Origin: Dokdonia sp. Hel_I_53
GTDB lineage: Bacteria; Bacteroidota; Bacteroidia; Flavobacteriales; Flavobacteriaceae
NCBI RefSeq assembly: GCF_007827465.1
Contig: NZ_VISL01000001.1
Location: 377,001 to 441,000, forward strand
DNA length: 64,000 bases
Reading direction: 5' to 3'
Under the pieces are notes generated by a model that saw only the letters and a list, made by a program, of their open reading frames with translations, was not told the origin of the DNA and did no database searches. Made by a program: the position numbers and the translations under genes. Each line of letters opens with the position of its first letter. The first letter of the stretch is position 1. Of this stretch, positions 1,464-18,743 are shown piece after piece.

Positions 1464-1507
1464 AATGATGTCACTTTACCAAAGTCATCAATAAGCTCTT
1501 CTGGCTA

Positions 1508-2035
1508 TTACACAAAAGGATTAACCGCCGCAGCAGTTCCACTAGGATAACCCCAAGCCACATATTGTGATTTACCTTCATCTACATCAAGATGAACAAA
1601 TGTATTGCCTACACCTATGCGTTTAAAACCCACATCACGCGCGGCCATAACCAGATTGTTGCGAATTGTTCTAGAAGAAGCTCTTATATCTACAGCTTTA
1701 CAAGTAGGCATTTTATGAGAAGAGTTGCGCACGCCACCTACTTTACGATTGTGAGCGTCACTACGTGCTCCAGAGTTTATCCAACTGAAGATAGGATAAC
1801 CGGTCTTTACCGAGAGATTGTGCAGCATCGCTATAAGACGTCTATCCATACAATTTCCAGAACCAGGTAAATCTGGACTGTCAAAGACTGAGAAATCCAC
1901 AGCGATTCCGTTTGGCTTATATAGTCTAGATTTTGAACGCGACTTGCTAAATTTATAAGCCAAAAAAGCGCCACCCATAAGTAGCGCCATTGTGCCTAAT
2001 CCTATATAAATATGGCGGTTGTCTTTAATTGCCAT
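1508..2035 (-). CDS. Membrane-anchored M15-type peptidoglycan peptidase
   Basis: A single membrane segment lies at residues 9-27, followed by a basic stretch. The C-terminal domain has the M15 (VanY/DacA-like) metal pattern: H..DVR-type motif SSHKMPTCKAVDIRAS (about 104-119) and a second ligand pair in FVHLDVDE (about 146-153). M15_3 enzymes cleave peptidoglycan cross-links; an N-terminal anchor fits a virion or envelope protein. It is the last gene of the long minus-strand operon, and its ATG overlaps the stop of the gene before it (TTAATG). It is one of three cell-wall hydrolase-type genes in the block. Confidence 0.75.
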   Translation of the reverse strand: MAIKDNRHIYIGLGTMALLMGGAFLAYKFSKSRSKSRLYKPNGIAVDFSVFDSPDLPGSGNCMDRRLIAMLHNLSVKTGYPIFSWINSGARSDAHNRKVGGVRNSSHKMPTCKAVDIRASSRTIRNNLVMAARDVGFKRIGVGNTFVHLDVDEGKSQYVAWGYPSGTAAAVNPFV

Positions 2036-2184
2036 TAAGCCTTGTCTTTACAGTTGCAGGGCTTCTTTGTCTGCTGACTTTCTTTATATCTCAAATAAAG
2101 ATCAGAACCTATTTTAATAGCACTTAGCAAGGTAAATGCGGCAAAAATGTAATTGAGTGTATTACTTCCTTTATCTACATTCAT
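2035..2184 (-). CDS. Small membrane protein, 49 aa
   Basis: This short reading frame fills the space between 2181 and 2035 and overlaps its neighbours at both ends (ATGA before it, TTAATG after it), the same coupling as in the rest of the operon. It has one hydrophobic span (about residues 11-27, NYIFAAFTLLSAI) and a charged tail with a CNC motif. Function is unknown; size and topology match the other small membrane proteins of this block. Confidence 0.6.
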   Translation of the reverse strand: MNVDKGSNTLNYIFAAFTLLSAIKIGSDLYLRYKESQQTKKPCNCKDKA

Positions 2185-2504
2185 AAAATCTTCTTTTTAT
2201 TGTAAATCTGAATTTCGGCTTCCAGCTGTTCGATGTATTTTTCTAGCTCCGTGATACGATCACGCTGTTTAGTAATCGTGCGTGACATTGCGGTATTCTT
2301 ATTCTCGAGCTGGCTGATGCGTTTTTCCATTTTTTCAGACCATTGCACCCAGTTGGTCACAATGCTGTCGTTAGCCTGAGCATTAATGTGCCGTATCTCA
2401 GCATTTTTCAGTTTGCGCTGGATATTATAGTGCATCAATAACTCTATGAGCTTCCAGAAGCCCGTAGCACCTAATACAATCGCAACAATTTCATAAACAT
2501 TCAT
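2181..2504 (-). CDS. Membrane protein with coiled coil, 107 aa
   Basis: An N-terminal membrane segment (about residues 3-24) is followed by a long charged helix with heptad spacing from about 55 to 105 (SQLENKNTAMSRTI, ELEKYIEQLEAEI), predicted to be a coiled coil. Such short anchored coiled coils occur as phage lysis accessory or virion membrane proteins. It overlaps the next small gene by ATGA. The palindrome CTTTCGCGAAAG lies just upstream at 2521-2532. I do not recognise a family. Confidence 0.55.
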   Translation of the reverse strand: MNVYEIVAIVLGATGFWKLIELLMHYNIQRKLKNAEIRHINAQANDSIVTNWVQWSEKMEKRISQLENKNTAMSRTITKQRDRITELEKYIEQLEAEIQIYNKKKIL

Positions 2505-2520
2505 AATTTGGTTTTTTACG

Positions 2521-2532
2521 CTTTCGCGAAAG
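2521..2532. repeat. Dispersed 12-bp palindrome CTTTCGCGAAAG (14 exact copies in window)
   Basis: Exact copies start at 2521, 5681, 8980, 11712, 14634, 22673, 34629, 34852, 45258, 47028, 52366, 56029, 60414 and 61619. They are usually extended to GCTTTCGCGAAAGC and sometimes to TACGCTTTCGCGAAAGCGTA. Most lie inside genes, often coding FAKA or LSRKR, and a few are intergenic. Near-copies with one change lie at about 17855, 20840, 42573, 49844 and 58465. Copies occur in both element and chromosome, so the element shares a host-wide repeat. Confidence 0.9.
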
Positions 2533-2542
2533 CGTACTCTAA

Positions 2543-3019
2543 TTAAAATTCATCCCTTGGTCTTGGCTCGTCTGGTGGTAAAATCAACTCTCCACCACGA
2601 ATTCCAAAATCCACATAGCGTAATGGAAGCTCCGCTAAATAAGGGTTCACATTGAGTATCACGTGATCTTCACTATCTACAAAAGTCCCGTAGAGAAACA
2701 ATCTACCATCTGCATCTATCGCGTAGTTAAAGGTGTTTCCCTTTTCGGTCTGGCAGAGTCCGTAGTAATCAGATTGATCTGTTACTAAGGGTGCTGGTAA
2801 ACTTACCTGCCAGCCTGCTATCTCAAGTTGTTTGGCATCTCTAGCACGTAGGCGAATATCCTTCCCGACAACTAGATTTGCATTAATAACCGAGTACCGA
2901 TTGCGTACTGGCGAGTGTAGCAAACTTGGCCCTAAATGCTCTGGCTTTACTTCTAAAATCTCTTGTGTATTTTCTATCGATTTTGTCTCTTTTGAAACAC
3001 TATCACTTTGATATCCCAT
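2543..3019 (-). CDS. Hypothetical protein, 158 aa
   Basis: This soluble protein has no clear signal peptide or membrane span. The first 45 residues are polar; from about 60 on, alternating short hydrophobic strands suggest a beta-rich domain (for example RLFLYGTFVDSEDHVILNVN), and the end is proline-rich and acidic. It lies inside the structural/lysis operon, 3 bases from the next start. I do not recognise it; a virion component is an inference from position only. Confidence 0.5.
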   Translation of the reverse strand: MGYQSDSVSKETKSIENTQEILEVKPEHLGPSLLHSPVRNRYSVINANLVVGKDIRLRARDAKQLEIAGWQVSLPAPLVTDQSDYYGLCQTEKGNTFNYAIDADGRLFLYGTFVDSEDHVILNVNPYLAELPLRYVDFGIRGGELILPPDEPRPRDEF

Positions 3020-3021
3020 AA

Positions 3022-3441
3022 TTAGTTGGCTATTAATATTCCTGAAAGGATCAACAAGCCACCACCCAAAAGGATCTTGTGCAACTTGCCTTGTTTCAGT
3101 TTTTGATTTTTAAATTTTAGTTGGTTTTCTAAATACAGAATTTGCTCATTGCTATTCTCGGAAACTGCTGTCAGATTGAAATTTTGCAATCTCAATCTCG
3201 AGACCACAGAGTCTTTCTTTACGAGTAAACTGTCCTTGAGCCTAATCGAAAAATCCAATCGTCTCACGATGGAATCCTGATACCTGCCACGCTCTAATCG
3301 CAATGCAATCTCACGAGACTGTTCCAAGTTAAAACAGAAGTATTTCTCATTTTTTATAAGCTGTACTATCGGTTTTAAATCTTGAGAAATACAGCAATAG
3401 CTCTGCATCGCTATAACTAGAAATAGTAGTAATTTTTTCAT
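3022..3441 (-). CDS. Exported coiled-coil protein with C-terminal membrane span (spanin-like candidate)
   Basis: Residues 1-19 look like a signal peptide (MKKLLLFLVIAMQSYC), the middle is a charged helix, and the last 15 residues form a hydrophobic span (LLGGGLLILSGILIAN). A secretion signal plus C-terminal span is the layout of unimolecular spanins of tailed phages, although no good lipobox is present because the residue before Cys is Tyr. Its first 95 bases overlap the end of the gene before it in another reading frame, also as in spanin pairs. A start 33 bases downstream would reduce the overlap but lose the signal. Confidence 0.5.
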   Translation of the reverse strand: MKKLLLFLVIAMQSYCCISQDLKPIVQLIKNEKYFCFNLEQSREIALRLERGRYQDSIVRRLDFSIRLKDSLLVKKDSVVSRLRLQNFNLTAVSENSNEQILYLENQLKFKNQKLKQGKLHKILLGGGLLILSGILIAN

Positions 3442-3697
3442 TGAGACTCGTTTTTAGATGGCCGATTGTGACGGTATTCTTACTTACCAAAGCCGTAAGG
3501 CTATCCACCTGCTTTTCCAGATCTTCAATCTCCAGGTCTAGCGATTGATTTTTTATAAGCAGATTTTGATTTTGTTCTTTCCAGTCGCTAGGCGTTCTTA
3601 GCTCATATCCATTCTCTTGTGGAATGATGATCTGCGTAAGCACAAGGACGACCACCGCAAAAAAGAAAATGGCGAAAATGACTTTCCACTTATTCAC
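3347..3697 (-). CDS. Membrane-anchored coiled-coil protein (inner-spanin-like candidate)
   Basis: This 116-residue protein has an N-terminal span (about 6-25, VIFAIFFFAVVVLVLTQIII) and a coiled-coil segment (about 40-75, LEIEDLEKQVDSLTALV). The layout is that of inner-membrane spanins. It directly follows a small multi-span protein resembling a holin and overlaps the next gene by 95 bases in another frame. Sequence family not recognised. Confidence 0.5.
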   Translation of the reverse strand: MNKWKVIFAIFFFAVVVLVLTQIIIPQENGYELRTPSDWKEQNQNLLIKNQSLDLEIEDLEKQVDSLTALVSKNTVTIGHLKTSLNEKITTISSYSDAELLLYFSRFKTDSTAYKK

Positions 3698-4022
3698 GTT
3701 TATCTTCGTTTTCAGGTTTAAAAAGTCTGTTCAACACACTTTCTAAAATCAGCTTGTGGAAGACGAGCGCAAACACAAATGACTGCAACAGCATTTCTAT
3801 CTTGTGCAGCATCGTATCTCTTATAAAATAGACGATGATACCGTAAAGAATTCCTACGATAAGCACGCGATAGCGTGTCTTGATCTTTATGCCAGTAAAA
3901 TCTGCTAACCAATCTGTGACTGGTTTTTGATTAAGACCGAAGGCAATAATGATGAACGTAAAAATATATGCCCAATCTAGGCTAGATAAGTAGTGAACTA
4001 AGTGTTTTAGGATGTCTGTCAT
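3690..4022 (-). CDS. Small multi-span membrane protein (holin-like candidate)
   Basis: This 110-residue protein has three predicted membrane segments (about 18-32, 50-67 and 76-94) and a charged C-terminus, the topology of class I holins. It is coupled by overlaps of 4-8 bases to its neighbours and precedes the two spanin-like genes, so a lysis cassette is plausible. It could equally be a virion membrane protein. No family recognised with certainty. Confidence 0.5.
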   Translation of the reverse strand: MTDILKHLVHYLSSLDWAYIFTFIIIAFGLNQKPVTDWLADFTGIKIKTRYRVLIVGILYGIIVYFIRDTMLHKIEMLLQSFVFALVFHKLILESVLNRLFKPENEDKRE

Positions 4023-4261
4023 TTCAATTGATTTTTAAGGGTTTCTTTTATGATTTTGATGTCTGCGGTAAGCAGGGATATTTGATGATTTGGGAACATA
4101 TTTTTGGTCAAATGTGCAACCAGAACAATCGTTGCTCCAGATGCCAATAGAGCGATGATGATCTTTGTAAGCGTCTGGTTAGTCATTGTGAGCGTGACTT
4201 CGGTTTTAATGCCGTCATCATCTACAAGGCTTGACACGATATCTTTAATGCTTTTACCCAT
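4019..4261 (-). CDS. Small membrane protein, 80 aa
   Basis: A central membrane segment (about residues 31-48, KIIIALLASGATIVLVAHL) separates a polar N-terminus from a short charged tail. It is coupled to the next gene by ATGA. Likely one of the virion or lysis membrane proteins; not recognised. Confidence 0.55.
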   Translation of the reverse strand: MGKSIKDIVSSLVDDDGIKTEVTLTMTNQTLTKIIIALLASGATIVLVAHLTKNMFPNHQISLLTADIKIIKETLKNQLK

Positions 4262-4263
4262 AA

Positions 4264-4746
4264 TTAGTTGGATTGGTTTTTAATGGATTCGTTCATTTCT
4301 AAGGCATTGAATAGTGATTCTGTTACCGTCTCAACTTTTAGATATTTCTCTACACGCTCTTGTACTTTTTCGTCAAAAACGCCAGTCACGATTCCAGCCC
4401 AACCGTAATTTCTTAGCAAATACACTTGCAAACGTTCCACATTTTTTCCCTTGCTTCCCAGTTGCAAAGGGAATTCATCAGCGACAGGTTTTTTAGGTAC
4501 TGTTTTGGGTTTTGGTGCGCTGGACTTTTCTTCAGGTGCAGGTGGTTTTGACTTGACCACTTGCATTGAAGGTTTAAAGTCTTTCTGTTTTGGTCTTAAA
4601 ATCTCCTTTTTCAAGACCGCCGCTACAGCTTGCTTTTGCTCTTCAGTATCTTCTCTTTTGCTTTTCAGCAATTGATGGGCAATGATCCCGACACCGAGTA
4701 AACCGCCAGTAATACAAACTACTTTTACGATGTTTTCTCGTTTCAT
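4264..4746 (-). CDS. Membrane-anchored peptidoglycan-binding-like protein
   Basis: The order is an N-terminal span (about 7-26), a Lys/Pro-rich linker (about 45-92), then a C-terminal domain starting FPLQLGSKGKNVERLQ and continuing VTGVFDEKVQERV. This is the PG_binding_1 pattern of a tandem-helix domain that binds cell wall. The next gene has the same architecture, so the two are paralogous neighbours. They may hold a virion protein to, or guide a hydrolase into, the peptidoglycan. Confidence 0.6.
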   Translation of the reverse strand: MKRENIVKVVCITGGLLGVGIIAHQLLKSKREDTEEQKQAVAAVLKKEILRPKQKDFKPSMQVVKSKPPAPEEKSSAPKPKTVPKKPVADEFPLQLGSKGKNVERLQVYLLRNYGWAGIVTGVFDEKVQERVEKYLKVETVTESLFNALEMNESIKNQSN

Positions 4747-5240
4747 TTCCCTACCATTTTTAGCGCTTTCCGCATTCCTGCGATGTCCTTTTCTGTAAAT
4801 TCAGCTTTGCCCAATCGCTTTTTGGCAGCCTTTAACGTGAGCGGTCCAAAAACGCCATCAACTCCATCACGCTTTGAACCAGACTTACCTAGATTCTCTT
4901 TGTAAATCTTTAGATAGGCCTGTAAAATTTTTACATCTTGATGACGTGTTCTATATTTTAGCGGATAGCCAGTCTTCACGTATTTAATGCGTGGTGTAGA
5001 TGAAGAGCTGGACGATGATCCTGAACTACTTGAAACAGGAATGGTCGTGTTTATAGGAATTATCTGTGGTGTGTTCTCCTGGTTTTGAGCCAGGTCGACT
5101 TCTTTTTGATCCTTCTTTTTCTTGTAGTACATATAGGCAACTGCGCCACCTGCGAGTACAACGATCACACTACCCACAACAATGAGATCTTTGTTTTGTT
5201 CAAAAAAGGTTTTCTTAGGTTTGGTTACGATTTTCTTCAT
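4743..5240 (-). CDS. Membrane-anchored peptidoglycan-binding-like protein with Ser-rich linker
   Basis: An N-terminal span (about 18-38) is followed by a basic stretch, a low-complexity linker with more than ten serines (about 70-85) and a PG_binding_1-like domain (YPLKYRTRHQDVKILQAY, then DGVFGPLTLKAAKKRL). It has the same plan as the gene after it. ATG/stop overlaps by 4 bases with that gene. Confidence 0.6.
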   Translation of the reverse strand: MKKIVTKPKKTFFEQNKDLIVVGSVIVVLAGGAVAYMYYKKKKDQKEVDLAQNQENTPQIIPINTTIPVSSSSGSSSSSSSTPRIKYVKTGYPLKYRTRHQDVKILQAYLKIYKENLGKSGSKRDGVDGVFGPLTLKAAKKRLGKAEFTEKDIAGMRKALKMVGK

Positions 5241-5242
5241 AG

Positions 5243-5770
5243 TTATTGGGTTTGATAATTAGGTAATTGGCGCACAGGATTATGCACGTATTGTTTCATC
5301 TCCGATGCACTTAAAAAGCTGGACAAGTGTTTCCACAAATCCTGCTTGTACAGTTGCCAGTACGATTTTGAGAGACTTGCTACTTGGGTTTTATCTCGTA
5401 AGCGTTTCGCAAAAACGTCCTTGACTGCATCTTCATCATCGTTAAAAGTGCCTTTGGCATTCTTGAGCTTTTTTGCCAAATTTCTGGCTGTAGCATCATC
5501 GAGTATTTTAATCTTTCGTGGTGCGATCCATTGCTGCACATTGGTCAGATAATTCATATCAAAAGGCTTGTCCCAGTTGGGTTCTCGTTTAATCGTGCCT
5601 TGATTTCCTGTGGACACTTGGATTCCAGATCCTATATCTTTGCCGATGACCTGTTGGGCTTGTTGTTTTTCCTTTTTACGCTTTCGCGAAAGCGTAACAA
5701 ACACACCTACTGTAACTGCCGCCATTGTAGCGCCACCTATCATCCACCATCCTGTTTTTGTTATTTTCAT
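5243..5770 (-). CDS. Membrane-anchored protein with annexin-like repeat (paralogue 1)
   Basis: An N-terminal span (about 9-27) is followed by basic residues and a C-terminal helical domain containing FNDDEDAVKDVFAKRL, then TQVASLSKSYWQLYKQDL and LSSFLSASEMKQYV. This matches the annexin repeat pattern (G-T-D-E-x-A, R-x-Q-I, Y-x-x-x-Y-x-x-x-L, L-x-x-x-L-S). It is clearly related to the product of 5781-6275, including the shared NYLT and QLPNYQT ends. The annexin relation is my reading of the pattern. Confidence 0.55.
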   Translation of the reverse strand: MKITKTGWWMIGGATMAAVTVGVFVTLSRKRKKEKQQAQQVIGKDIGSGIQVSTGNQGTIKREPNWDKPFDMNYLTNVQQWIAPRKIKILDDATARNLAKKLKNAKGTFNDDEDAVKDVFAKRLRDKTQVASLSKSYWQLYKQDLWKHLSSFLSASEMKQYVHNPVRQLPNYQTQ

Positions 5771-5780
5771 TCTCTCTTTT

Positions 5781-6275
5781 TTAAGCTGTTCTATAGTTGG
5801 GTATTTGTCCTATGATGCTCAGAATGATCTTGATTTCATCCTCCGAAAGTCGATTCTTAATGGTATCGATCAAGTTCTTGTTGTAAGTGCTTTGATACGC
5901 CTTAGCCACTTGCGAGACCTGGACTTTATCCTTTAATTTTCTAAACACGGCATACACCGCATCTTCATCATCTCCACCTTCATACCACGCGCCCCAAGAC
6001 TTATGGATCTGCTTTGCAAAACTGGTTGCGCTGCTCTCACTCATTGCGATCACTTGACCATTTACATTCTGCAAAACTTTTGTGAGATAGTAAATGTCAA
6101 AGGCATTTTCCGCATCGAGATTATTTGCCGTGGTTGCCAGTTGTTTCTTTATATGCGTCAATAGTTCGCTTGTTTTTTTATCGCGTTTACGCTGGCGTAT
6201 AGATAGAAATGAGCTTCCAACAATGAGAATTCCCACAGCACCGCCACTTACTTTATAGATGAGCTGTCTGTTCAT
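5781..6275 (-). CDS. Membrane-anchored protein with annexin-like repeat (paralogue 2)
   Basis: Residues 8-25 form a membrane span followed by RQRKRDKK. The C-terminal domain reads GGDDEDAVYAVFRKL, VQVSQVAKAYQSTYNKNL and LSEDEIKIILSIIGQIPNYR, which aligns along its length with the neighbouring gene and with the annexin repeat consensus. The tandem copy indicates a duplication inside the structural operon. Role unknown; membrane-surface binding is a guess from the annexin pattern. Confidence 0.55.
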   Translation of the reverse strand: MNRQLIYKVSGGAVGILIVGSSFLSIRQRKRDKKTSELLTHIKKQLATTANNLDAENAFDIYYLTKVLQNVNGQVIAMSESSATSFAKQIHKSWGAWYEGGDDEDAVYAVFRKLKDKVQVSQVAKAYQSTYNKNLIDTIKNRLSEDEIKIILSIIGQIPNYRTA

Positions 6276-6718
6276 TTGCCTAATAATTTAGTAGCACGTC
6301 CTGCTGGCGTGAGCATCGCCAGGTCTGTAATGTCTGCATCTTTTGCAGAGTTGCGTAAAACCACCACAATAAGAATGAGTGTGATCGTGAGAATTACCGG
6401 AACTCCGATAGCTAAGATCTTCGTAAGGCTCTTGCCCAAACCAAAAATATTACCGCCTATTTCCGAAATATCTGCAATAGTTCTGGTTGCCATATTGCTA
6501 ACATCCAGCTCGTTCTTGAGTAACCATTTGTTAAATGATGGACTTGTGGTGCATATCGCAGACCCATTGGTTTTCCAAGTGACCAGCCACAGCATTTTTG
6601 CGTTATCCTGTCCCACTTCTTTTTTTAATTTGGCATAATAGCTCGTCCAGAAGTCGCAAGGGTCGTCGGCTTCTGGAATGAGAAAGGATGTGTTCTTTAT
6701 AGTTACTTGCTGTGCCAT
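6272..6718 (-). CDS. Single-span membrane protein, 148 aa
   Basis: The N-terminal 80 residues are soluble, with two tryptophan-rich segments (DFWTSYYAKLKKEV, MLWLVTWKTNGSAICTT). A long hydrophobic span follows at about 102-122 (LAIGVPVILTITLILIVVVL), then a short tail. It overlaps the next gene by 4 bases. It fits the membrane-protein theme of the operon but I do not recognise it. Confidence 0.55.
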   Translation of the reverse strand: MAQQVTIKNTSFLIPEADDPCDFWTSYYAKLKKEVGQDNAKMLWLVTWKTNGSAICTTSPSFNKWLLKNELDVSNMATRTIADISEIGGNIFGLGKSLTKILAIGVPVILTITLILIVVVLRNSAKDADITDLAMLTPAGRATKLLGK

Positions 6719-6904
6719 TTAATTGCCTAAAAGTTGATTGGCTTGTTTTTCAATTTGGGTTTGATTGGGATCTTTCTCTTTAAGAAAAGCTATTAGGCGT
6801 TGCTTTAGTTTTGCTTCTCTGGCTCTCGCAACTCGCTTATCGTGATTGATGTATAGCTGTCGTCCCATCCAGAATCCTATGCCCAATGTGATGATGGTTC
6901 TCAT
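6719..6904 (-). CDS. Small membrane protein, 61 aa
   Basis: I chose the start at 6904 (MRTIITLGIGF) over a longer frame because it falls just after the stop of the amidase-like gene at 6906 and gives an N-terminal hydrophobic segment. The rest is a basic helix (KRVARAREAKLKQRL). It ends next to the gene at 6718. Function unknown. Confidence 0.5.
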   Translation of the reverse strand: MRTIITLGIGFWMGRQLYINHDKRVARAREAKLKQRLIAFLKEKDPNQTQIEKQANQLLGN

Positions 6905-6905
6905 A

Positions 6906-7400
6906 TCAAAATCCTTGATAAATATTACACTTGGGAATCTCCAGTTCTTCCAGCCATTTCTTGACACTAAAACCAGGTTTATCACTATCCTGTTTTGTGG
7001 CGATCTCATTAAAACCCACAATGATGATTTCTGGAAACCTAATAGTATAAAATCGTATCACGGCTTCTAGTGTGGCGGTTTGTTCTTCGGTACGTGTGTC
7101 TTTCCACCACGCTTCTTTGAGTGTTCTGCCACCTACATAAGCAAGGTTTTTCACATTGCCAGTAATACCATATCTGCCTTGTGAGATGCCCCAAAGATCT
7201 ACTTCGGTCGGGCTGTTTTCAGGGATAATGGTTTCCAAAGTGCCATCCTGCAATACGAGATAATCAAATCCAGGACGGTTCCAACCAAAACCACCATTGC
7301 GTTTGTCGTTGGTGTGTTTTTCGATGATCGTTCTTGCATCAAGATCTAAGGCTTCGCTGGTATCGGTACTGTGTATGACTAAAAAATCTACGTCTTTCAT
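6906..7400 (-). CDS. N-acetylmuramoyl-L-alanine amidase-like protein, probably lacking zinc ligands
   Basis: The fold markers of amidase_2 / T7-lysozyme type amidases are present: FLVIHSTDTSE at the N-terminus with the first zinc histidine, FGWNRPGFDYLV, and a C-terminal IVGFNEIATKQDSDKPGFSV. In active members the last segment carries a histidine after the first Gly and a cysteine before PGF or PSF. Here they are Phe and Lys, so two of the three metal ligands appear lost. It may bind rather than cut peptidoglycan. It is coupled to the CHAP-type gene by 4 bases. Confidence 0.7.
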   Translation of the reverse strand: MKDVDFLVIHSTDTSEALDLDARTIIEKHTNDKRNGGFGWNRPGFDYLVLQDGTLETIIPENSPTEVDLWGISQGRYGITGNVKNLAYVGGRTLKEAWWKDTRTEEQTATLEAVIRFYTIRFPEIIIVGFNEIATKQDSDKPGFSVKKWLEELEIPKCNIYQGF

Positions 7401-10512: not shown

Positions 10513-10515
10513 ACG

Positions 10516-10743
10516 TTATAGTACTTCCAGAACACGCAAGGTGCTTCCGTTGGGTTCGTAGTTTATTTTGTGGTAACCTTTACCTACAAATGGATAGCTT
10601 TTGGCTTCGCCTGGAAGAAGGGAAACGCCATTTACTTGAGCCGTTTTTTCTCCTATATTCTTGACAGACCCATACAGAAATCCTTCCTGGAAACTTCCAT
10701 CGTCAGATACTTCACTTTCCTTTATTTGCGCCAGTATGTCCAT
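10516..10743 (-). CDS. Small beta-rich protein, 75 aa
   Basis: I prefer the start MDILAQIKESEV at 10743 because it leaves only a short overlap with the gene ending at 10712; an in-frame ATG at 10782 is also possible. The protein has alternating strands (GFLYGSVKNIGEKTAQVNGVS, then STLRVLEVL) and no membrane span. It may be a small virion protein. Not recognised. Confidence 0.5.
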   Translation of the reverse strand: MDILAQIKESEVSDDGSFQEGFLYGSVKNIGEKTAQVNGVSLLPGEAKSYPFVGKGYHKINYEPNGSTLRVLEVL

Positions 10744-11287: not shown

Positions 11288-11907
11288 AGCTGTTGTGGCA
11301 TTTGCGCACGTTGACCGCCATACGGCATCGGTGGCTGTTTGGACTTCATTAATATCGCTGCACCTATGCCCAGAACCACCACACCGCCGCCTATCATCAG
11401 CATCATATTGGTTTTCTTTTTTGCTTCGGCTTCCTTGCGTTTTTGTTCTTCTCGACGGCGTTCTTCTGCCTGTCGTCGCTCTTCATCACGGCGGCGTTGT
11501 TCTTCACGCATCTGTTGCATACGGCGCTCCATATCTCTTTTGGCCGCAGCTGCCTGAGCTGCCGCTGCGGCTGCTGCATTAGTATTGCCACCAGAACTAC
11601 GGCGTTTTTTCTTTTTGAAGAGACCGCCCAGGATTCCCACGGCACCTTTGGCCACGGCTCCCCAAAACTCGTCCTCGCGACCTGCAAGTCTGGATATGAG
11701 TTCTGCAAGCGCTTTCGCGAAAGCGGAATTATCATCCTTCATCAGTTCTACAGTCTCATTAATGAGTGCCTTGTGTGATGGCCTGTCACGGAAAGTGATC
11801 CCATAGACACGCAAGAGCTGTTGCAGTTCTAAGGGATAGTGCAGGATCAGGTATGAGATATCATCTATCGCCTGATTGTATTTCAATTGTTTGGTTTTAT
11901 TTGCCAT
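11284..11907 (-). CDS. Coiled-coil protein with C-terminal membrane span, 207 aa
   Basis: A helical N-terminal domain (1-85) is followed by a Gly/basic patch (GGLFKKKKRRSSGG), an alanine run (about 110-120), and a long Arg/Glu-rich single helix or coiled coil (about 122-165). A span at about 168-186 (MMLMIGGGVVVLGIGAAIL) and a Pro/Gln-rich tail complete it. It overlaps the next gene by 4 bases. Likely a virion membrane protein; function unknown. Confidence 0.55.
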   Translation of the reverse strand: MANKTKQLKYNQAIDDISYLILHYPLELQQLLRVYGITFRDRPSHKALINETVELMKDDNSAFAKALAELISRLAGREDEFWGAVAKGAVGILGGLFKKKKRRSSGGNTNAAAAAAAQAAAAKRDMERRMQQMREEQRRRDEERRQAEERRREEQKRKEAEAKKKTNMMLMIGGGVVVLGIGAAILMKSKQPPMPYGGQRAQMPQQL

Positions 11908-12562
11908 TTTTTAAGTCAAATTTTATGCTCGCACCTACCAGAACACCTGCGATAAATACGACGCCAAAAAGCAACATCTCATCTTTTGTGATATGGATGC
12001 CTTTGGGTTTCTCGGCAGCTACTTCTGGTTTGGATTCTGGTTTGCTTTCCTTGCGTTTGCGCAGTTCGTTCCAGACCATTTGAACTTCCTGTGCTAGGTT
12101 TTTGTCTTCCAGATCTTCATTGGATCGCTTTACGATGTCCTGATAATACTTCTCTAGGGCTTTATCATCATAGGAATTGAACTGATCCAGAAAACTGTCT
12201 TCATCTCCAGAACCTGCATAGTTGGAATGACCGCAGGATTTACAATAGTTTTCCGCTTTCGTACTTCGGCTACGCTCAGTATGAACTACAGCGTTTTCAC
12301 CACAGGCAGCACATTTGGAATTTTCAACAGTATTTACCTGAAGTATCGCTGCCTTGTCTGGATGAATTTCTAAAAGATCCTTGATGACCTTTCTCCCTTT
12401 GTTCTTTACAAGTTCTTTGACCGCCTGGGACAGATGTTGCTGGTTATCAATTTTTTCAAAACCGTAATCAAACAAGATGTCATTTGCGGCATCTGTGTTA
12501 TGAAAGACGATATAGTCTATCCTGTTCTGTGCGAGATTTTTGGGGTTATTGTTGCGTTTCAT
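11897..12562 (-). CDS. Zinc-ribbon-like protein with C-terminal membrane span, 221 aa
   Basis: Two CxxC motifs (CAACGE about 84-89 and CKSCGH about 107-112) suggest a zinc ribbon, and a span lies at about 195-212 (MLLFGVVFIAGVLVGASI). Between the CxxC pairs sits VVHTERSRSTKAE, which is encoded by a flavobacterial dispersed repeat (about 12261-12287) inserted in frame. It is the first gene after the candidate capsid terminator and overlaps the next gene by 11 bases. Role unknown. Confidence 0.55.
   Translation of the reverse strand: MKRNNNPKNLAQNRIDYIVFHNTDAANDILFDYGFEKIDNQQHLSQAVKELVKNKGRKVIKDLLEIHPDKAAILQVNTVENSKCAACGENAVVHTERSRSTKAENYCKSCGHSNYAGSGDEDSFLDQFNSYDDKALEKYYQDIVKRSNEDLEDKNLAQEVQMVWNELRKRKESKPESKPEVAAEKPKGIHITKDEMLLFGVVFIAGVLVGASIKFDLKNGK
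12261..12287. repeat. Flavobacterial dispersed short repeat inserted in a coding region
   Basis: The segment contains CTTCGGCTACGCTCAGTATG, the 'HTERSRS'-coding form of a short dispersed repeat that I recall as common in flavobacterial chromosomes. It lies in frame between the two CxxC pairs of the zinc-ribbon-like protein. Only this copy is visible in the window. Confidence 0.55.
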
Positions 12563-12573
12563 AGGGTGTCGTT

Positions 12574-12622
12574 AAAAAAGAACAGCCAGAGCTAGGTTTG
12601 GGGAAACCGTGACTCTGGCTGT
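12574..12622 (-). terminator. Strong stem-loop terminator after candidate capsid gene
   Basis: On the minus strand the arms ACAGCCAGAG (12622-12613) and CTCTGGCTGT (12591-12582) pair perfectly. An inner GGTTT/AAACC stem closes a CCCC loop, and a TTCTTTTTT run follows (down to 12574). It sits 42 bases after the stop at 12664, the only strong terminator inside the structural block, as expected behind a very highly expressed gene. Confidence 0.75.
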
Positions 12623-12663
12623 CTCAATTAGGGAAAGAGTCAAGACTCAAGTCGGAGCTCCAA

Positions 12664-13602
12664 CTATCGTCTCTTACGTCTTACAAGGCGTGACTTAGAC
12701 CGTCTTGCCACCGGTTTTCTGACATATCGACGACGGCTTACAGGTCTCCTGCGAGAACGTCTCACTCTACGTCTGGGACGCCCTAATGGTCTGGGTTTTC
12801 TACGACTGCGTATCAGGTCCAGTTGTGGAAGTCCAGTCGTACGTGGTGCACGAGAGAGTTCTGCAACGTTCTGACCTTTAAGCAAGTTGCCCAGATTTGC
12901 TCTTGCTTTAATGGTAAATGTGAATACGGCTGTAACGCCATCCTCTACCATAATCTGTAGGGAATCCTGTCCCGTCACGTCCATCTCGAAGTTGTCATCG
13001 TCAATGAGCGTTTGGGTAAAGTTTTGTGGCGAAGTCGCATTACGCGGTTGATACACTCTGGTCGTTTTTGAACCTGAAGCTGTTCTACGCTCCACGCGCA
13101 GTACATTATCAAACTGTAGCGGATTGCTCACAGAGTACTTCATTCCCGATATTTTAAAAGGGTTTGCCTTACTCTCTTCACGTACTTCCTTGTGACTGGA
13201 TTCTTCTATCTCTACGGTCACACCATTAGGCTGTGCTGCCTCACGGTTACCGCCAAAAACATTTGCCTCTGCCGCTGCGCCAGATTTGTTTGTGATCACT
13301 ACCGTTAGGGTACGGTCGTTAGGATCAATCTTGCCTACTGTGGCTGCGGTGTAATCGTCATAATCATCTTCGTACTCAACTTCATCTGCATAATCGTCAT
13401 AGTCGTCGTACTCGTCTTCAAACTCATCATCATAACCATCTTCTAGGCCTTCAAAGCCTGTATCGAAGTCGTCCTCATCGTCATAGTCATCGTAGTCTTC
13501 TTCGTGGTCGTAATCGTCGTATTGGTTTTCTGCGTCTTCTTCGTAGCGCATTAACTCGTCGTTATAATCTTTCATTAGTCTGGGATTTGTCCATTGAAAC
13601 AA
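12664..13602 (-). CDS. Candidate major capsid protein: acidic head, beta core, Arg-rich tail
   Basis: This 312-residue protein has three parts: residues 11-85 almost entirely Asp/Glu/Tyr; a beta-rich core 95-235 (DRTLTVVITNKSG, FGGNRE, YSVSNPLQFDNVLRV, ATSPQNFTQ); and a tail 266-312 in which roughly half of the residues are Arg or Lys. The beta core resembles two segments of the 7846-9324 product. Its own terminator, size and place at the head of the operon suggest the main coat protein. The start could be nine codons downstream (13575, MKDYNDEL). A perfect 7-bp inverted repeat (TCCATTG/CAATGGA) overlaps the upstream ATG. The capsid role is an inference. Confidence 0.5.
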   Translation of the reverse strand: MFQWTNPRLMKDYNDELMRYEEDAENQYDDYDHEEDYDDYDDEDDFDTGFEGLEDGYDDEFEDEYDDYDDYADEVEYEDDYDDYTAATVGKIDPNDRTLTVVITNKSGAAAEANVFGGNREAAQPNGVTVEIEESSHKEVREESKANPFKISGMKYSVSNPLQFDNVLRVERRTASGSKTTRVYQPRNATSPQNFTQTLIDDDNFEMDVTGQDSLQIMVEDGVTAVFTFTIKARANLGNLLKGQNVAELSRAPRTTGLPQLDLIRSRRKPRPLGRPRRRVRRSRRRPVSRRRYVRKPVARRSKSRLVRRKRR

Positions 13603-13654
13603 TGGAGTTTTTCATCTCAAGAATATGTTGTCCCTTATGGCGCATCTCTAAATG

Positions 13655-13828
13655 CTATGCCTTTTTGGTAGGGACAGCCGCAGTCTTCTTGTTTTTTTCT
13701 GCGAGCTTTTTTGCCTTCATCTTTTGAACCATAGGTGCTACCAGTAAGGTTCCTATTGCGATGCCGGCGATTCCTGCTCCTACGCAATACATTATAGGTT
13801 GCCAGGCGATGTCATTTTTCTGTGCCAT
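13655..13828 (-). CDS. Small membrane protein, 57 aa
   Basis: I chose the start at 13828 (MAQKNDIAW), which removes 21 unlikely N-terminal residues. One span lies at about 12-31 (PIMYCVGAGIAGIAIGTLLV), followed by a Lys-rich tail. It is the first gene of the structural block, 52 bases before the candidate capsid gene. Function unknown. The 255 bases upstream to 14084 hold the AbiE promoter region and no other gene that I can see. Confidence 0.5.
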   Translation of the reverse strand: MAQKNDIAWQPIMYCVGAGIAGIAIGTLLVAPMVQKMKAKKLAEKNKKTAAVPTKKA

Positions 13829-14015
13829 TTTGGGTTGTTTTTGTAAAACTGTTTGTAATAATGGGCAGGTCTCTAAACCTTGTGAGCACAAAGATGAAGG
13901 GAAGAAGAAGGTTTACCGTGGTAGGGTTTGGGACTTTGGGACGGAGATAGAGATGCTGGAGCTATAGAACGAGCTATAAATAAAGAAACTGATAAAGGAA
14001 TAGATATTGCTATAT

Positions 14016-14047
14016 ATGTCAAGTAAATAGATGTAAAAACTTGACAT
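14016..14047. promoter_or_regulatory. Inverted repeat, candidate AbiEi operator
   Basis: ATGTCAAG (14016-14023) and CTTGACAT (14040-14047) form a perfect 8-bp inverted repeat with a 16-base spacer. The right arm covers the TTG promoter element of the downstream operon. AbiEi antitoxins repress their own promoter by binding inverted repeats, so this is a good operator candidate. Confidence 0.6.
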
Positions 14048-14070
14048 TATAAAGAATTAAACTATCTTTG
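14041..14070 (+). promoter_or_regulatory. Bacteroidota-type promoter of the AbiE operon
   Basis: TTG (14041-14043), a 19-base gap and TATCTTTG (14063-14070) match the flavobacterial consensus TTG-N17-23-TAnnTTTG. The start codon follows at 14084, so the leader is very short. Confidence 0.65.
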
Positions 14071-14083
14071 TAATGCTTAAACT

Positions 14084-14809
14084 ATGAATATAACAGCATA
14101 CATAAAAGATAAGATAGCTCGTATAGATGCAGGAGATGCATTTACATACGATGATCTGGCTATACCTCAAGGTGAGTTTACAGCTGCTTCTAAGTCTTTA
14201 AGTAGACTAGTTACTGCTGGTACTATAAAGAGATATAGAAAAGGTGTTTATTATAAGCCTAAACAAACAGACTTTGGCGAATTAAGACCTAGTGATACAG
14301 AACTGCTCAATATCTATCTTTTTGAAGATAACAAACAGGTGGCCTACATTACTGGAGTGCGATTGTACAATCAATTCAGGCTGACCACTCAGGTTCCTAA
14401 CGTGGTAAGAGTTGCGAGTTCTTCAAAGCAAGTACGTGGTAAGGTAGGAAACACAATGGTGCGGCCTGCAAAGAGCTATGTTACCGTTTCTAAAAAGAAT
14501 ATTCCATTACTACAGGTGCTCGATGTTGCAAAAGACTTTAAAAATATTCCTGATGGCGACAGCTCCCAGATTCTTTCGTTTCTTAAAAACAGAATAGCTC
14601 AATTTTCGGCAAAAGATCTGGAACGTTTTACCGCTTTCGCGAAAGCGTACCCACCTAAAGTTGCTGCCTTAATAGGTGCCATCTACGAGTTTATGGGATT
14701 AGAAAAACAGAGCAACGCATTGCGTGAGAACATCAATGCCTTAAGTACCTACACCTTTGGGATTTCCAAGGATATACTACCAACTATTAACAACTGGAAC
14801 ATCGCTTAA
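14084..14809 (+). CDS. AbiEi-type antitoxin / repressor
   Basis: This 241-residue protein starts with a winged-helix region (AYIKDKIARIDAGDAFTYDD, then LSRLVTAGTIKRYRKGVYY), typical of AbiEi/DUF6088 antitoxins that repress their promoter. It directly precedes, with a TAATG overlap, an AbiEii nucleotidyltransferase toxin. The operon is on the plus strand, inserted between two minus-strand core blocks. The operator and promoter lie 14-68 bases upstream. Confidence 0.75.
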   Translation: MNITAYIKDKIARIDAGDAFTYDDLAIPQGEFTAASKSLSRLVTAGTIKRYRKGVYYKPKQTDFGELRPSDTELLNIYLFEDNKQVAYITGVRLYNQFRLTTQVPNVVRVASSSKQVRGKVGNTMVRPAKSYVTVSKKNIPLLQVLDVAKDFKNIPDGDSSQILSFLKNRIAQFSAKDLERFTAFAKAYPPKVAALIGAIYEFMGLEKQSNALRENINALSTYTFGISKDILPTINNWNIA

Positions 14810-15789
14810 TGAGATTACACGAATATCAAGAACCCTTCAGAAATGCGATACGTGCTGCCGCAGATCATTTCGGCATTGCCGAAATATTTATTGAAAAAGA
14901 TTACTGGGTCACTTTTGCGCTCAAGCAAATATTTACAAATCCTGCATCAAAGGATATTACTGTGTTTAAAGGTGGAACGTCTTTATCAAAATGTCATAAG
15001 ATTATCGAGCGCTTTTCGGAAGATATAGATCTCGTCATCATCACTGACGAAGAAGAAGGAAGTAACGCCATCAAGAAGAAACTTAAGCTTGTCACAGAAG
15101 CTGTGGCTGAACCCTTGACTTATGTACCTGGTCACTTAATCGAGAACAAAAAGGGTAAGATCAGAAAACTGGTATATAGCTACGATAAAAGCGGAATGGA
15201 TGGAGCCTTTGGCCACGTGCGTGATGAGATAGTGGTAGAAGTGTCCAGCTATGGAAGCCCGCATCCCAGCAGTGCGGTTGAAATACACTCGATGATTACC
15301 GGTTTAATTGCCAGTACAGGAAATGTGGATCTGATAACCAAATACGAGCTCGAACCTTTTAAAGTTGTTGCGCTAGATATTGAGCGTACCTTTTGTGAGA
15401 AAGTGATAAGCCTCGTGCGATTTTCATATACCGAAACCCCTTTGAAAGACTTGGCAGATAAAGTAAGGCACACCTATGATTTGCACCAATTACTAAAGTT
15501 AGAGCGAATACAAGATTTTCTAGCAAGTGAAGACTTTTCTGCAATGCTCAATCAGGTAGGTAAAGATGATGACAAAGCGATTCCCAATGACAAGGAATGG
15601 CTCTCACAACACCCAAACAAAGCACTCATATTTGAAGATATTGAAGGCGTTTGGAGCAAAATAAAATTAACCTACAACAGCTCTTTCAAAGAGTTGCTTA
15701 CTGGGGATTTACCTAATGACGAAGAAGTCTTGAAATCTCTTAAAGCTATTAAGAATCGTTTGGGAGAAATTAAATGGGAGATGTCATAA
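14809..15789 (+). CDS. abiEii: AbiEii/AbiGii nucleotidyltransferase toxin
   Basis: The nucleotidyltransferase signature VFKGGTSLSK (about 44-53) followed by ERFSEDIDLVI (about 59-69) gives the GS motif and paired aspartates of DNA polymerase beta-like enzymes in AbiEii. In AbiE these toxins block growth during phage infection by modifying tRNA or nucleotides. Length (326 aa) fits the family. Co-transcribed with the antitoxin, and the next gene starts within its 3' end. Confidence 0.8.
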   Translation: MRLHEYQEPFRNAIRAAADHFGIAEIFIEKDYWVTFALKQIFTNPASKDITVFKGGTSLSKCHKIIERFSEDIDLVIITDEEEGSNAIKKKLKLVTEAVAEPLTYVPGHLIENKKGKIRKLVYSYDKSGMDGAFGHVRDEIVVEVSSYGSPHPSSAVEIHSMITGLIASTGNVDLITKYELEPFKVVALDIERTFCEKVISLVRFSYTETPLKDLADKVRHTYDLHQLLKLERIQDFLASEDFSAMLNQVGKDDDKAIPNDKEWLSQHPNKALIFEDIEGVWSKIKLTYNSSFKELLTGDLPNDEEVLKSLKAIKNRLGEIKWEMS

Positions 15790-16811
15790 GTAACAACAAA
15801 CTTAATATCAATATGAACCCATTAGATCAATTTAAAAATATAAATGCAAGCCAAAAAGCAATAGAAGCAGCGATGGGTAGTATTGCGAAATTAGATTGGG
15901 TAAATGAAATGACTAAACGCATTCAGTATCCTACAAATATTGCAGCATTTGGTGGTGCTTTAGATATCCTTAAATCAATGCACCAACATCCTGGAATTGA
16001 ATCGATGAATTCTATTTCTAAAGTGACATCTGGAATCGTACCGCTATTAGATTGGTATAAAGACAATCCACTTAAAAATCAGATGGATGGCATTATAACC
16101 AATCACGCCTTGCTCAATCAGCGCTTGTCATCTTTATCATCTTTATCATCAATGTATGCTGAAAATTATGTGAAGCCATTGAATGCTATAGAAGTTGCAC
16201 TGAGAGGTATTTCTACAGATTTTTTGAAGAATATATCATTTGATGATCTTGATGTAGCTGAAGAGGAATATGATCTTGTTGAGGAGGCTACCGAAGCAAT
16301 AGTGACTCAAGCAGAATCGCTACAAACTTTCTCAGATAAGTATGTGACTCAGGAAAGTTTTGAAAAATTTCAGATACAGTTATTTGATGAATTGCAACTG
16401 ATAAGTTCAAAGTCTAAATCAGAAAAAGCTAAAGCCTTTATTTTTCAAATAATGCAAATCATTTCATTTGTTGTGATGATTTTTTCATTACACAGCGATT
16501 CCCATAAAATGACAAACAAAGAGCTTTCTGAAATCATAGACGATAAATTTAAATCGCATCAAGAGCACACTAATATAAAGTTAGATAGCATTTTAAGTCA
16601 AATCACGAAACAAAGGCTTGCAACTACTGACGTAAATCTGAGAGTGAACAATAAGAAAAGAGCTGCAATAAAGGGTATCGTTAAAAAAGGACAGTTGATA
16701 AGCGTTATTGAGACTCGACATAAGTACTTATTAATCTATTATATTGATCAAGAAACTGGTGAGCCTAAATCCGGTTTTGTTTTCAAAAAAAACTTTGAAA
16801 AGATTGATTAA
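15774..16811 (+). CDS. Membrane protein with C-terminal SH3-like domain, 345 aa
   Basis: It overlaps the end of the toxin gene by 16 bases; a later start at 15813 (MNPLDQFKN) is possible. It has a helical N-terminal region with an LSSLSSLSS repeat (about 117-125), a span at about 222-240 (AFIFQIMQIISFVVMIFSLH), a helical segment, and a C-terminal bacterial SH3-like domain (VNLRVNNKKRAAIKGIVKKG). It is part of the AbiE transcript but not a normal AbiE component. It could be a third defence gene or an independent abortive-infection membrane protein. Confidence 0.5.
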   Translation: MGDVISNNKLNINMNPLDQFKNINASQKAIEAAMGSIAKLDWVNEMTKRIQYPTNIAAFGGALDILKSMHQHPGIESMNSISKVTSGIVPLLDWYKDNPLKNQMDGIITNHALLNQRLSSLSSLSSMYAENYVKPLNAIEVALRGISTDFLKNISFDDLDVAEEEYDLVEEATEAIVTQAESLQTFSDKYVTQESFEKFQIQLFDELQLISSKSKSEKAKAFIFQIMQIISFVVMIFSLHSDSHKMTNKELSEIIDDKFKSHQEHTNIKLDSILSQITKQRLATTDVNLRVNNKKRAAIKGIVKKGQLISVIETRHKYLLIYYIDQETGEPKSGFVFKKNFEKID

Positions 16812-16813
16812 AA

Positions 16814-17740
16814 TCACATAGGCCCAACCATCCCATCTTCGTGATACCGTAACTTATCTGAAATCAATTTTACGATGGCATCGTTCTTTGTTTTGTAGGT
16901 GTTGTTGCCGTCAAAATCTTCTTCATTCAGTAGCATTTTCACTTTACGGCTTTCTTCCTGGTCAATAAATTTTTTACAGGCACGTATAAACGCTGCACGG
17001 CTACATCCACGGATGCGTTGCTCTCGCATATTGATATAAACAAAGAAACTTTTCTGGATTTTATATTCTTGTTCTGTGATCTTGCCCATAGCAAAGGCAT
17101 TGGAACATAATTCATATTGTTCATCGACAATAAGCTGACCGATACGAACCATTTGATATTTTGGGATGCGCTCGCGATAGCGCGTCACATCATCCACCTG
17201 ATGATGCAAACGTAACCACGTACAGTTTTGCCATTCTGATGTAGTAATTTTTGCTACAGACTGGTGCGTGAGTACTATATCGATTCCTTTATGGCGCACG
17301 GTACAGAGTGCACCGATCATCGACTGCCCTTTGGCGCCAGTCATATAGTGATCAATATCGTCCAGAACCACCAAGCCATTTTTAAAGTGCTTCATTATTT
17401 TGGTAATGACTTCTTTCTTTTCGTCATTATCCATAGGTGATCCATCTGGGTTAAAAGGTCTAATTCTACGTGAGGTTACTTTGGTCAGTGCCTTTAGATG
17501 ATTTGGACTTACCGTACGAAATTGCGGATAATCATCATCGTTAGTATCAAAAGCAAGTACCTTACGACCTTTCTTGCCTACCGCAAGATGATCCATCATA
17601 TAGCGTTTGATCTCTTGCTTGTTCCTGTATGTCTTCCCGACACCAGTCTCGCCACAGACCAGTAAGATCATTGGCTGGCGTTCTAAGTCTTCTTTGAGAT
17701 AGCTTATGGGTTTTCTTCCGCGATTAGAATTTACAGACAT
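16814..17740 (-). CDS. P-loop ATPase, candidate genome-packaging ATPase
   Basis: Walker A lies at about 29-37 (CGETGVGKT), Walker B at about 124-131 (LVVLDDID), and a sensor-like DIVLTHQSVAKI follows. The size (308 aa), the paired Asp in Walker B and the lack of helicase motifs match FtsK/HerA-superfamily packaging ATPases of tailless membrane viruses, and also Zot-like proteins of filamentous phages. It heads the next core block and would lie directly upstream of the structural operon if the AbiE insert were removed. The family assignment is moderate. Confidence 0.55.
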   Translation of the reverse strand: MSVNSNRGRKPISYLKEDLERQPMILLVCGETGVGKTYRNKQEIKRYMMDHLAVGKKGRKVLAFDTNDDDYPQFRTVSPNHLKALTKVTSRRIRPFNPDGSPMDNDEKKEVITKIMKHFKNGLVVLDDIDHYMTGAKGQSMIGALCTVRHKGIDIVLTHQSVAKITTSEWQNCTWLRLHHQVDDVTRYRERIPKYQMVRIGQLIVDEQYELCSNAFAMGKITEQEYKIQKSFFVYINMREQRIRGCSRAAFIRACKKFIDQEESRKVKMLLNEEDFDGNNTYKTKNDAIVKLISDKLRYHEDGMVGPM

Positions 17741-17742
17741 AG

Positions 17743-18738: not shown

Positions 18739-18743
18739 AAATT

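Follow-up and report, generated by a model that had tools for sequence, protein, structure and literature searches.

A candidate tailless, membrane-containing provirus inserted at a tRNA-Arg gene of a marine flavobacterium

Introduction

What is the mobile element that occupies a tRNA-Arg gene in the marine flavobacterium Dokdonia sp. Hel_I_53, and does its block of small membrane-protein genes build a virion? The window, the whole stretch of 64,000 nucleotides analysed here (positions 377,001 to 441,000 of contig NZ_VISL01000001.1), had been read from its letters alone as carrying a temperate tailless membrane virus of an undescribed lineage. The predicted jelly-roll fold, the PM2-like ATPase and the varied insertion sites sustain that reading in part; its holin and spanin calls lack support. 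We conclude that the element is probably the provirus of a tailless, likely membrane-containing dsDNA virus whose lineage has no match in the virus collections searched.

Results

Extent, ends and insertion site

The element is 86.6 kb long (contig 345110 to 431717), larger than the 54 kb proposed earlier. Both ends share a core GTGA and a T-arm-like stretch, which marks the real left end; no long direct repeat of the tRNA occurs within 40 kb left of the window. The features at this scale are:

1..54716, no strand, in-window part of the 86.6-kb element (the remaining 31.9 kb lie left of the window)
53118..54752, plus strand, large serine recombinase (PF00239 6e-27, PF07508 5.9e-9)
54717..54791, minus strand, tRNA-Arg(acg) with the attachment site at its 3' end (ARAGORN and junctions)

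The 3' end of the recombinase extends into the tRNA-Arg gene, and the recombinase is retained in all ten elements that we mapped. The left end was located in five of these ten (G000, G062, G068, G060 and G067) and is absent from the examined stretches of the other five. Element sizes range from 57.5 to 90.8 kb (five elements).

Distribution and mobility

We collected 53 loci, one of which (L001) is the locus of the window. Four others, L004-L007, apparently duplicate L035, L049, L038 and L039, so about four repeats are contained in any count out of 53, 37 or 35. The tree includes 38 of the 46 genome-contig loci and leaves out L038, L041, L045, L046, L048 and L050-L052, mostly short or partial.

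The ten mapped elements have a common gene order and occupy four kinds of insertion site. A survey for the block at other sites, as the sequence-only reading had proposed, found it in several genera, where the tRNA or tmRNA gene used differs, and not only as a fixed chromosomal locus. Isolates that bear the element include Croceibacter atlanticus and Patiriisocius marinus KCTC 32322 (L009). The distribution is patchy, with the element in 6 of 59 relatives and 10 of 397 family genomes, and the one positive among 395 genomes of a phylum-wide draw is the window's own genome, which is included in the genome counts. The elements of an Ulvibacter assembly and a Winogradskyella MAG show 91.7-100% identity in segments spanning most of their length, and the tRNA-Arg genes that they occupy differ. 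The empty-site evidence is partial: in 2 of 17 other genomes of the genus (G009 and G017) the flank genes lie 2.7-3.0 kb from the same tRNA, with other genes in between, and in several complete genomes of the genus the flanks are more than 100 kb apart. The core genes are intact in the ten mapped elements, bar a few undetected. For the G062/G068 pair, dN/dS is 0.02-0.11 for nine genes, and the jelly-roll protein shows zero amino-acid changes despite a 24% synonymous difference.

The structural gene block

The block and the genes next to it are:

1508..3697, minus strand, M15 peptidase with N-terminal span, coiled-coil span protein, 158-aa protein, overlapping small span ORFs
3690..6718, minus strand, small proteins, mostly with predicted span (paralogous pairs 164/175 and 165/160, the latter with sub-threshold PG_binding_1)
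6906..7849, minus strand, amidase and CHAP peptidoglycan hydrolases
7846..9324, minus strand, paralogous jelly-roll protein with inserted beta-propeller, shortened here (hhalign probability 94.5-95.2 and model of a relative)
9317..10075, minus strand, conserved 252-aa protein with HExCH motif (invariant residues)
10072..12562, minus strand, five ORFs of 146, 88, 191, 207 and 221 aa, four C-terminally anchored
12664..13602, minus strand, single jelly-roll protein with acidic N-tail and Arg-rich C-tail (predicted model and fold searches)
13655..13891, minus strand, 78-aa one-span protein between ATPase and jelly-roll gene
16814..17740, minus strand, packaging-type P-loop ATPase, no membrane span (Zot 1.6e-6; Pox_A32; PM2 P9)
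17743..19196, minus strand, acidic 331-aa protein and DnaA-C-type HTH protein

The run of contiguous minus-strand genes noticed earlier amounts to 24 consecutive ORFs at 1508-13891. The ATPase assigned to it is present nearby, but the plus-strand AbiE genes and one ORF (14084-16811) separate it from the block. About half of the block was said to encode small one-span proteins, and 13 of the 24 indeed combine a length of less than 200 aa with a predicted span (three spans in one case). Judged by hydropathy only, a span is predicted in 15 of the 24 block ORFs vs 1 of the 21 core genes elsewhere in the element (Fisher p 4.6e-5).

All three proposed peptidoglycan-hydrolase types occur in the block: an M15 peptidase (1508-2035; PF08291 1.7e-11), a CHAP protein (7397-7849; PF05257 2.9e-8) and an amidase (6906-7400; phrog_822 2.1e-20, Pfam Amidase_2 only 0.013). 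The two anchored wall-binding proteins are found as proteins with a predicted anchor and a PG_binding_1 match below its curated cutoff. The Arg-rich membrane proteins are found as Lys/Arg-rich one-span proteins at 10712-11287 (29%) and 10072-10512 (19%). The holin/spanin set is without support: the three-span ORF 3690-4022 has no match, the overlapping ORFs 3347-3697 and 3022-3441 give only weak matches, to unknown families, and weak holin/spanin labels land on other proteins (phrog_689 0.0025 on 11284-11907, phrog_89 0.092 on 2181-2504). The five ORFs at 10072..12562 include two paralogous pairs, 191/146 and 221/207. The 252-aa family has no Pfam and no PDB match in sequence searches, and its HExCH motif suggests that it may be a protease. 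To judge by its position, the acidic 331-aa protein is a possible assembly factor.

Two jelly-roll proteins

The structure check suggested for two gene products gave a predicted jelly roll for 12664-13602 and its paralogue for 7846-9324. We regard the former as the candidate major capsid protein, and the latter as a candidate second capsid, vertex or receptor-binding protein. The two families match at hhalign probability 94-95, vs at most 1.4 for 20 column shuffles. The model of a relative of the 7846-9324 product shows a jelly roll split by the propeller. Each of the two modelled proteins is predicted to have one jelly roll. The top Foldseek hits of the 12664-13602 model are nucleoplasmin cores, and in the fold search capsid proteins of icosahedral viruses rank alongside nucleoplasmins at the same Z; the predicted folds are not unrelated to those of all capsids. 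Against a viral library, Foldseek matches of the jelly-roll model are mostly tail-spike and uncharacterised proteins with some capsid proteins, none below E 0.001. A PDB sequence search with the jelly-roll profile gives a best E of 0.86, and comparison of both families with 13 known capsid, spike and receptor proteins finds no sequence match (best probability 4.7). For the propeller model, the matches listed in a structure search (VIA) are taken up by propellers and concern that domain.

The ATPase

The P-loop ATPase was to be checked against A32-type profiles. Pox_A32 matches 6 of 21 members, while Zot matches all 21 and is the best Pfam match in each. Against the packaging ATPase P9 of PM2 the probability is 87.6, vs at most 28 for 12 other compared sequences, and Walker A, a D-rich stretch, Walker B and the sensor align in register; the ATPase does not group with non-viral families. 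A PDB sequence search with its profile gives a best E of 0.2. An FtsK/HerA-type packaging ATPase lies beside the jelly-roll gene, with Zot as a competing label. The order ATPase, one-span protein, jelly roll is found in 35 of 37 loci (about four repeats included), and a span is predicted for the 78-aa protein in 35 of 35, counted likewise. One ATPase relative (L004, L006) carries an in-frame stop.

Other core modules and cargo

The rest of the element in the window consists of:

32571..35752, minus strand, conserved six-ORF module, the last a DUF7192 protein
38447..51133, minus strand, AAA_5/MoxR ATPase, Strawberry-notch helicase, N6 methyltransferase, glycosyltransferase, HTH protein and small ORFs (a module with a predicted role in replication and modification)
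238..1463, plus strand, cargo: end of a Wadjet-type operon starting left of the window (JetD_C just above cutoff, MksE-like JetB)
14084..16811, plus strand, cargo: AbiE pair and one ORF
19293..32602, plus strand, cargo: type IIG restriction enzyme, Gabija and further ORFs
35888..38226, plus strand, cargo: mercury-type cassette

Much of the element is cargo, which sits mostly in four slots, with AbiE, type IIG restriction, Gabija, Wadjet, and mercury and copper-type resistance. The ORF 238-531 lies inside the long SMC-like gene of the Wadjet-type operon, and PADLOC gives no match for the two Wadjet-type proteins tested.

Searches for known transfer and virion families

As first reported, no terminase, portal or tail family explains any core gene (45 of 45 scanned in Pfam, 29 of 45 in PHROGs), and the same holds for Caudoviricetes capsid genes. 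The labels that do appear are phrog_2666 'terminase' (3.6e-6, on the P-loop part of the ATPase), phrog_1259 'baseplate hub/tail lysozyme' (3.7e-33, CHAP domain only), phrog_1162 'tail fiber' (4.6e-4, on a 107-aa coiled coil) and, for the 207-aa protein, phrog_2854 'tape measure' (0.0019) with Pfam T7_gp14 at 0.0013, below cutoff. We rejected a tailed prophage (Caudoviricetes) because the tail-labelled PHROG matches cover only the CHAP domain and coiled coils. Pfam scans of the 45 core genes find no relaxase, coupling protein or type IV secretion family, and no inovirus family. No relative was found in the viral collections searched, and no description of the element in the literature searchable, that is, open-licence PMC papers.

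Discussion

The jelly-roll proteins admit a different use. The block could make DNA-filled membrane vesicles or another non-icosahedral transfer particle, in which jelly rolls coat or condense DNA as nucleoplasmins do and the ATPase loads it. The absence of a fixed capsid would explain the wide size range of the five elements, and the nucleoplasmin cores heading the Foldseek list, the acidic and Arg-rich tails, the many span proteins and the lack of relatives in viral collections all agree with it. We consider it unlikely, given that the gene order matches those of PM2, PRD1 and P23-77, that icosahedral capsid proteins rank with nucleoplasmins at the same Z, and that wall hydrolases fit lysis or entry. 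Slightly less likely in our judgement is a degraded or domesticated provirus, whose former virion block now belongs to a fixed island or to a carrier of defence and resistance genes moved by other phages. The share of cargo, the shortened propeller of the window's copy and the in-frame stop in the ATPase relative point that way, against the strong purifying selection in G062/G068, the core genes kept intact in ten elements (a few undetected), the variety of sites, and the near-identical copies that two genera share.

Cargo content, size and tRNA site are typical of conjugative elements, and an unknown transfer apparatus could account for the many span proteins; with the 45 core genes including neither a relaxase nor a coupling-protein or type IV secretion family, and having jelly-roll and packaging-type genes in their place, we find a conjugative element very improbable. 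The 21 of 21 Zot matches speak for a filamentous phage of inovirus type, or for an element that a Zot-type ATPase exports, a reading that we hold the least probable of all. Inoviridae have a membrane-anchored Zot/pI ATPase, whereas the element's ATPase has the Zot domain and no span; Pf1 proteins score 0.1-0.2 vs 87.6 for PM2 P9, the element measures 57-91 kb, and the Pfam scans find no inovirus family.

For the tailless provirus that we favour, the parts suggest a life cycle. The serine recombinase, encoded at the end abutting tRNA-Arg or tmRNA genes, would perform integration. On induction, replication or protection of the DNA would fall to the module with Strawberry-notch helicase and methyltransferase. 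A membrane vesicle would start from the small span proteins, and the 12664-13602 protein would form the shell, in which the propeller-bearing paralogue would be a second capsid subunit or serve at the vertex or in receptor binding. DNA would be pumped in by the PM2-P9-like ATPase, and the three wall hydrolases (M15, CHAP and amidase) would open the wall at entry or lysis. The cargo would travel with the virus and repay the host for keeping the element.

A wider claim seems to us about evenly balanced: that these are a whole undescribed lineage of Bacteroidota viruses, the largest tailless temperate viruses of bacteria, with a two-jelly-roll shell of common origin, a seven-bladed propeller in the C-D loop as a variable host-recognition crown, and set cargo slots that make the virus a shuttle for anti-phage defence islands and metal-resistance genes, from one genus, class or tRNA site to another, missed by current virus-finding tools. 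If the virus reading holds, the virus collections scanned lack a group of large tailless temperate viruses that live in marine Bacteroidota and carry genes for Wadjet, Gabija, AbiE, restriction and metal resistance from genus to genus. Two jelly-roll proteins whose sequence kinship is still detectable would permit direct study of capsid gene duplication and of how a capsid fold gained an inserted receptor-type domain, and a range of 57.5-90.8 kb with one jelly-roll family would pose a testable packaging question.

Several known systems share parts of this design. To our knowledge, no member of Singelaviria / Helvetiavirae has a propeller inside a jelly roll. According to PMC8812541, PMC8328091 and PMC12642351, these viruses (Thermus phage P23-77, SH1, SNJ1) have two single-jelly-roll capsid proteins and a packaging ATPase, and the two capsid proteins are thought to derive from an old gene duplication (PMC8812541). 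P23-77 resembles the element in having its ATPase just upstream of the capsid genes; the group differs in genome size, 16-31 kb (partly from PMC12642351). The element has two jelly-roll paralogues, both candidates as major capsid proteins, with no sequence kinship to VP16, VP17, SH1 VP4 or VP7 (hhalign probability at most 0.6), and its ATPase reaches 7.1 and 4.1 against theirs. The corticovirus PM2 has the like order of ATPase P9, tiny protein P7 and capsid P2, and differs in its 10 kb genome and in capsid proteins without sequence similarity to the element's; its capsid is described as double jelly-roll in PMC8328091. The tectiviruses PRD1 and PR772 have the order P9, P20, P3 and a virion peptidoglycan enzyme, and differ in their 15 kb and double jelly roll; their receptor-binding protein P2 has a beta-propeller motif (PMC6750898); the propeller is in a separate protein there and inside a jelly roll in the element.

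The host of SSIP-1 belongs to the wider Bacteroidota group. Like the element, SSIP-1 encodes an integrase and an N6-type methyltransferase, on a large circular genome; it differs in a KaiC/AAA_25-like ATPase, no Strawberry-notch helicase match seen, and half the size. Comparison of 22 element families with 22 of the 57 SSIP-1 proteins finds no sequence kinship (best hhalign probability 17.5), and hmmsearch of 18 families against 40 of the 57 gives a best E of 0.0078, a short low-scoring match. The review PMC6356626 describes SSIP-1 as tailless and membrane-containing with two major capsid protein types. FLiP and PhiCjT23, lipid-containing Flavobacterium phages of which PhiCjT23 is temperate (PMC9719478), differ in being ssDNA, and the capsid of FLiP is of double jelly-roll type, with a packaging ATPase lacking (PMC5894146); the two phages share Bacteroidota hosts with the element.

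Element ends and insertion sites

The Dokdonia element is mobile, inserts at specific sites and bears cargo around a conserved core. The genome is a single contig of 2.93 Mb, of which the window covers 377001-441000, and the right end of the element lies at

53118-54752: recombinase, reading into the tRNA gene
54717-54791: tRNA-Arg(acg), right end

The left end, at contig 345110, has a GTGA core and then a T-arm-like stretch, a type found in four further elements; a terminator-like hairpin sits just outside it in three elements inspected at sequence level. These two ends give an element of 86.6 kb, larger than the 54 kb of the sequence-only reading. Related elements, named by genome, measure 90.8 (G062), 79.3 (G068), 84.4 (G060) and 57.5 kb (G067). 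The survey for the block at other tRNA sites, suggested earlier, puts the right junctions of the elements at tRNA-Arg acg (Dokdonia, G062, G068 and, by sequence, G059a), tcg (G060) and tct (G063, G067 and G059b, the second element in G059), and at tmRNA genes (G080, G064). In two of 17 other genomes of the genus, 2.7-3.0 kb separate the left-flank genes from the same tRNA and the apt gene; in several complete ones the distance exceeds 100 kb. A 14-18-base repeat, present at 52363-52380, recurs in both orientations at numerous points of the 65 kb on the left; another short stretch (56021-56050) has many matches in same-genus genomes.

In the ten elements mapped (Dokdonia, G062, G063, G068, G060, two in G059, G067, G080 and G064) the core genes come in a common order; a few go undetected in individual elements, such as the 191-aa gene in G063 and G067 and the 88- and 158-aa genes in G059b. 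Most cargo occupies the gap that separates the ATPase from the 78-aa gene, the two sides of the DUF7192 module, or the space to the left of the M15 gene. A DUF7192 protein (34745-35752) and an AAA_5/MoxR-like ATPase (38447-39397), kept in all ten, flank a cargo slot.

Distribution and selection

A GTDB genome scan found 46 loci, spread over many Flavobacteriaceae and present as well in Owenweeksia, Fulvivirga, Splendidivirga (Cytophagales) and Flavilitoribacter (Saprospirales); Kordia algicida OT-1 has three. The ATPase turned up in 6 of 59 relatives, and 10 of 397 family genomes have the jelly-roll protein; both counts include the Dokdonia genome itself. A Nonlabens MAG encodes an ATPase that shares 99% identity with the one in the window. 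In the ATPase tree (38 rows) Aquimarina and Dokdonia are each split by supported branches, Nonlabens is divided without support, and Kordia is one clade. The elements of G068 (a Winogradskyella MAG) and G060 (an Ulvibacter assembly) are 91.7-100% identical in segments covering most of G068 29457-100703, with the leftmost 8 kb only 68-79% alike, and they occupy different tRNA-Arg genes; since both derive from uncultured material, mis-binning may be involved. Between G062 and G068, dN/dS is 0.02-0.11 in nine genes, and the jelly-roll protein has no amino-acid change although 24% of synonymous positions differ. Three further pairs, partly saturated, give 0.03-0.27 where obtainable.

Gene block and ATPase

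1508-13891, minus strand: block, including M15, CHAP and amidase proteins
16814-17740, minus strand: P-loop ATPase, predicted to be of packaging type

The run of at least 20 contiguous minus-strand genes noticed from sequence proves to be 24 consecutive ORFs, and its three peptidoglycan-hydrolase-type proteins are the M15, CHAP and amidase proteins. The ATPase is also present, but plus-strand AbiE cargo separates it from the block, and 1508-17740 is not one contiguous run. Membrane spans are predicted in 15 of the 24 block ORFs versus one of 21 other core genes; jelly rolls and a propeller are likewise predicted. The 7846-9324 propeller is shorter than in most relatives, and Nonlabens copies (L008, L050) have scores like its own. 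A conserved 252-aa protein (9317-10075), in whose HExCH motif the H, E, C and H are invariant and which has no match in Pfam or PDB searches, is possibly a protease.

The expected A32-type affinity of the ATPase appears in part: Pox_A32 matches 6 of 21 family members and HerA one, whereas Zot and AAA_22 match all 21. Against single sequences the probabilities were 87.6 for PM2 P9, 28 for PRD1 P9, 7.1 for P23-77, 4.1 for SH1 and 2.1 for STIV; since six controls gave 0.1-4.8 and two Pf1 proteins 0.1-0.2, only PM2 P9, perhaps with PRD1, stands out. The PM2 P9 alignment keeps in register Walker A, a VLAxD stretch ending DDY/EDY, Walker B and a THQS/ATQS sensor. At 35 of 37 loci (about four counted twice) the ATPase and jelly-roll genes have a 78-aa one-span protein between them, with a gap below 1 kb at 12 of the 35; PM2, PRD1 and P23-77 have the same order.

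The element is probably the provirus of a tailless, likely membrane-containing virus, which would form a virion with a membrane, lyse its host and be transferred in particles. Among known viruses SSIP-1 comes closest in kind, being a membrane phage of 43.8 kb that has two types of capsid protein; sequence comparison with the element's protein families (22 of its 57 proteins by hhalign, 40 by hmmsearch) found no kinship. The size range of the elements, the modest structural scores and the lack of relatives in the viral collections scanned (for IMG/VR by exact peptide patterns, of limited reach) argue most strongly against a provirus; the dependence of virus finders on known hallmark genes is a possible reason for the last. 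Zot-type ATPases served one Vibrio study as the sign of filamentous phages (PMC11630473).

Cargo

1-1463 and L054:15410-20000 (L054, a contig stretch left of the window): Wadjet-type operon, left of the M15 gene
14084-15789: AbiE
20935-24195: type IIG restriction enzyme
26283-30126: Gabija (GajA, GajB)

One element carries three defence systems: Gabija, the type IIG enzyme and AbiE. The Wadjet-type assignment comes from an MksE-like JetB and a JetD_C match just above cutoff; PADLOC matched neither of the two proteins tested. Such an operon fills the same slot in G068, G060 and G080, a four-gene set of similar look does so in G062, and other multi-gene sets in G064 and G059a. A mercury-type cassette (35888-38226) comprises an ArsR-family regulator, a MerTP fusion and a MerA/lipoamide-dehydrogenase-like reductase scoring below the curated MerA cutoff. 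Genes for CusA-type efflux pumps, for P-type ATPases and for a multicopper oxidase, named by eye from translations, are clustered in the left arm (L055 and L054, contig about 345200-372200); this cluster resembles stretches in G068, G060, G067 and G059a. Unassigned ORFs interspersed with the known defence genes (19293-20756, 24195-25898 and 30147-31607), for which PADLOC gave no match or a weak CARF-PDDEXK one, are candidates for undescribed defence genes.
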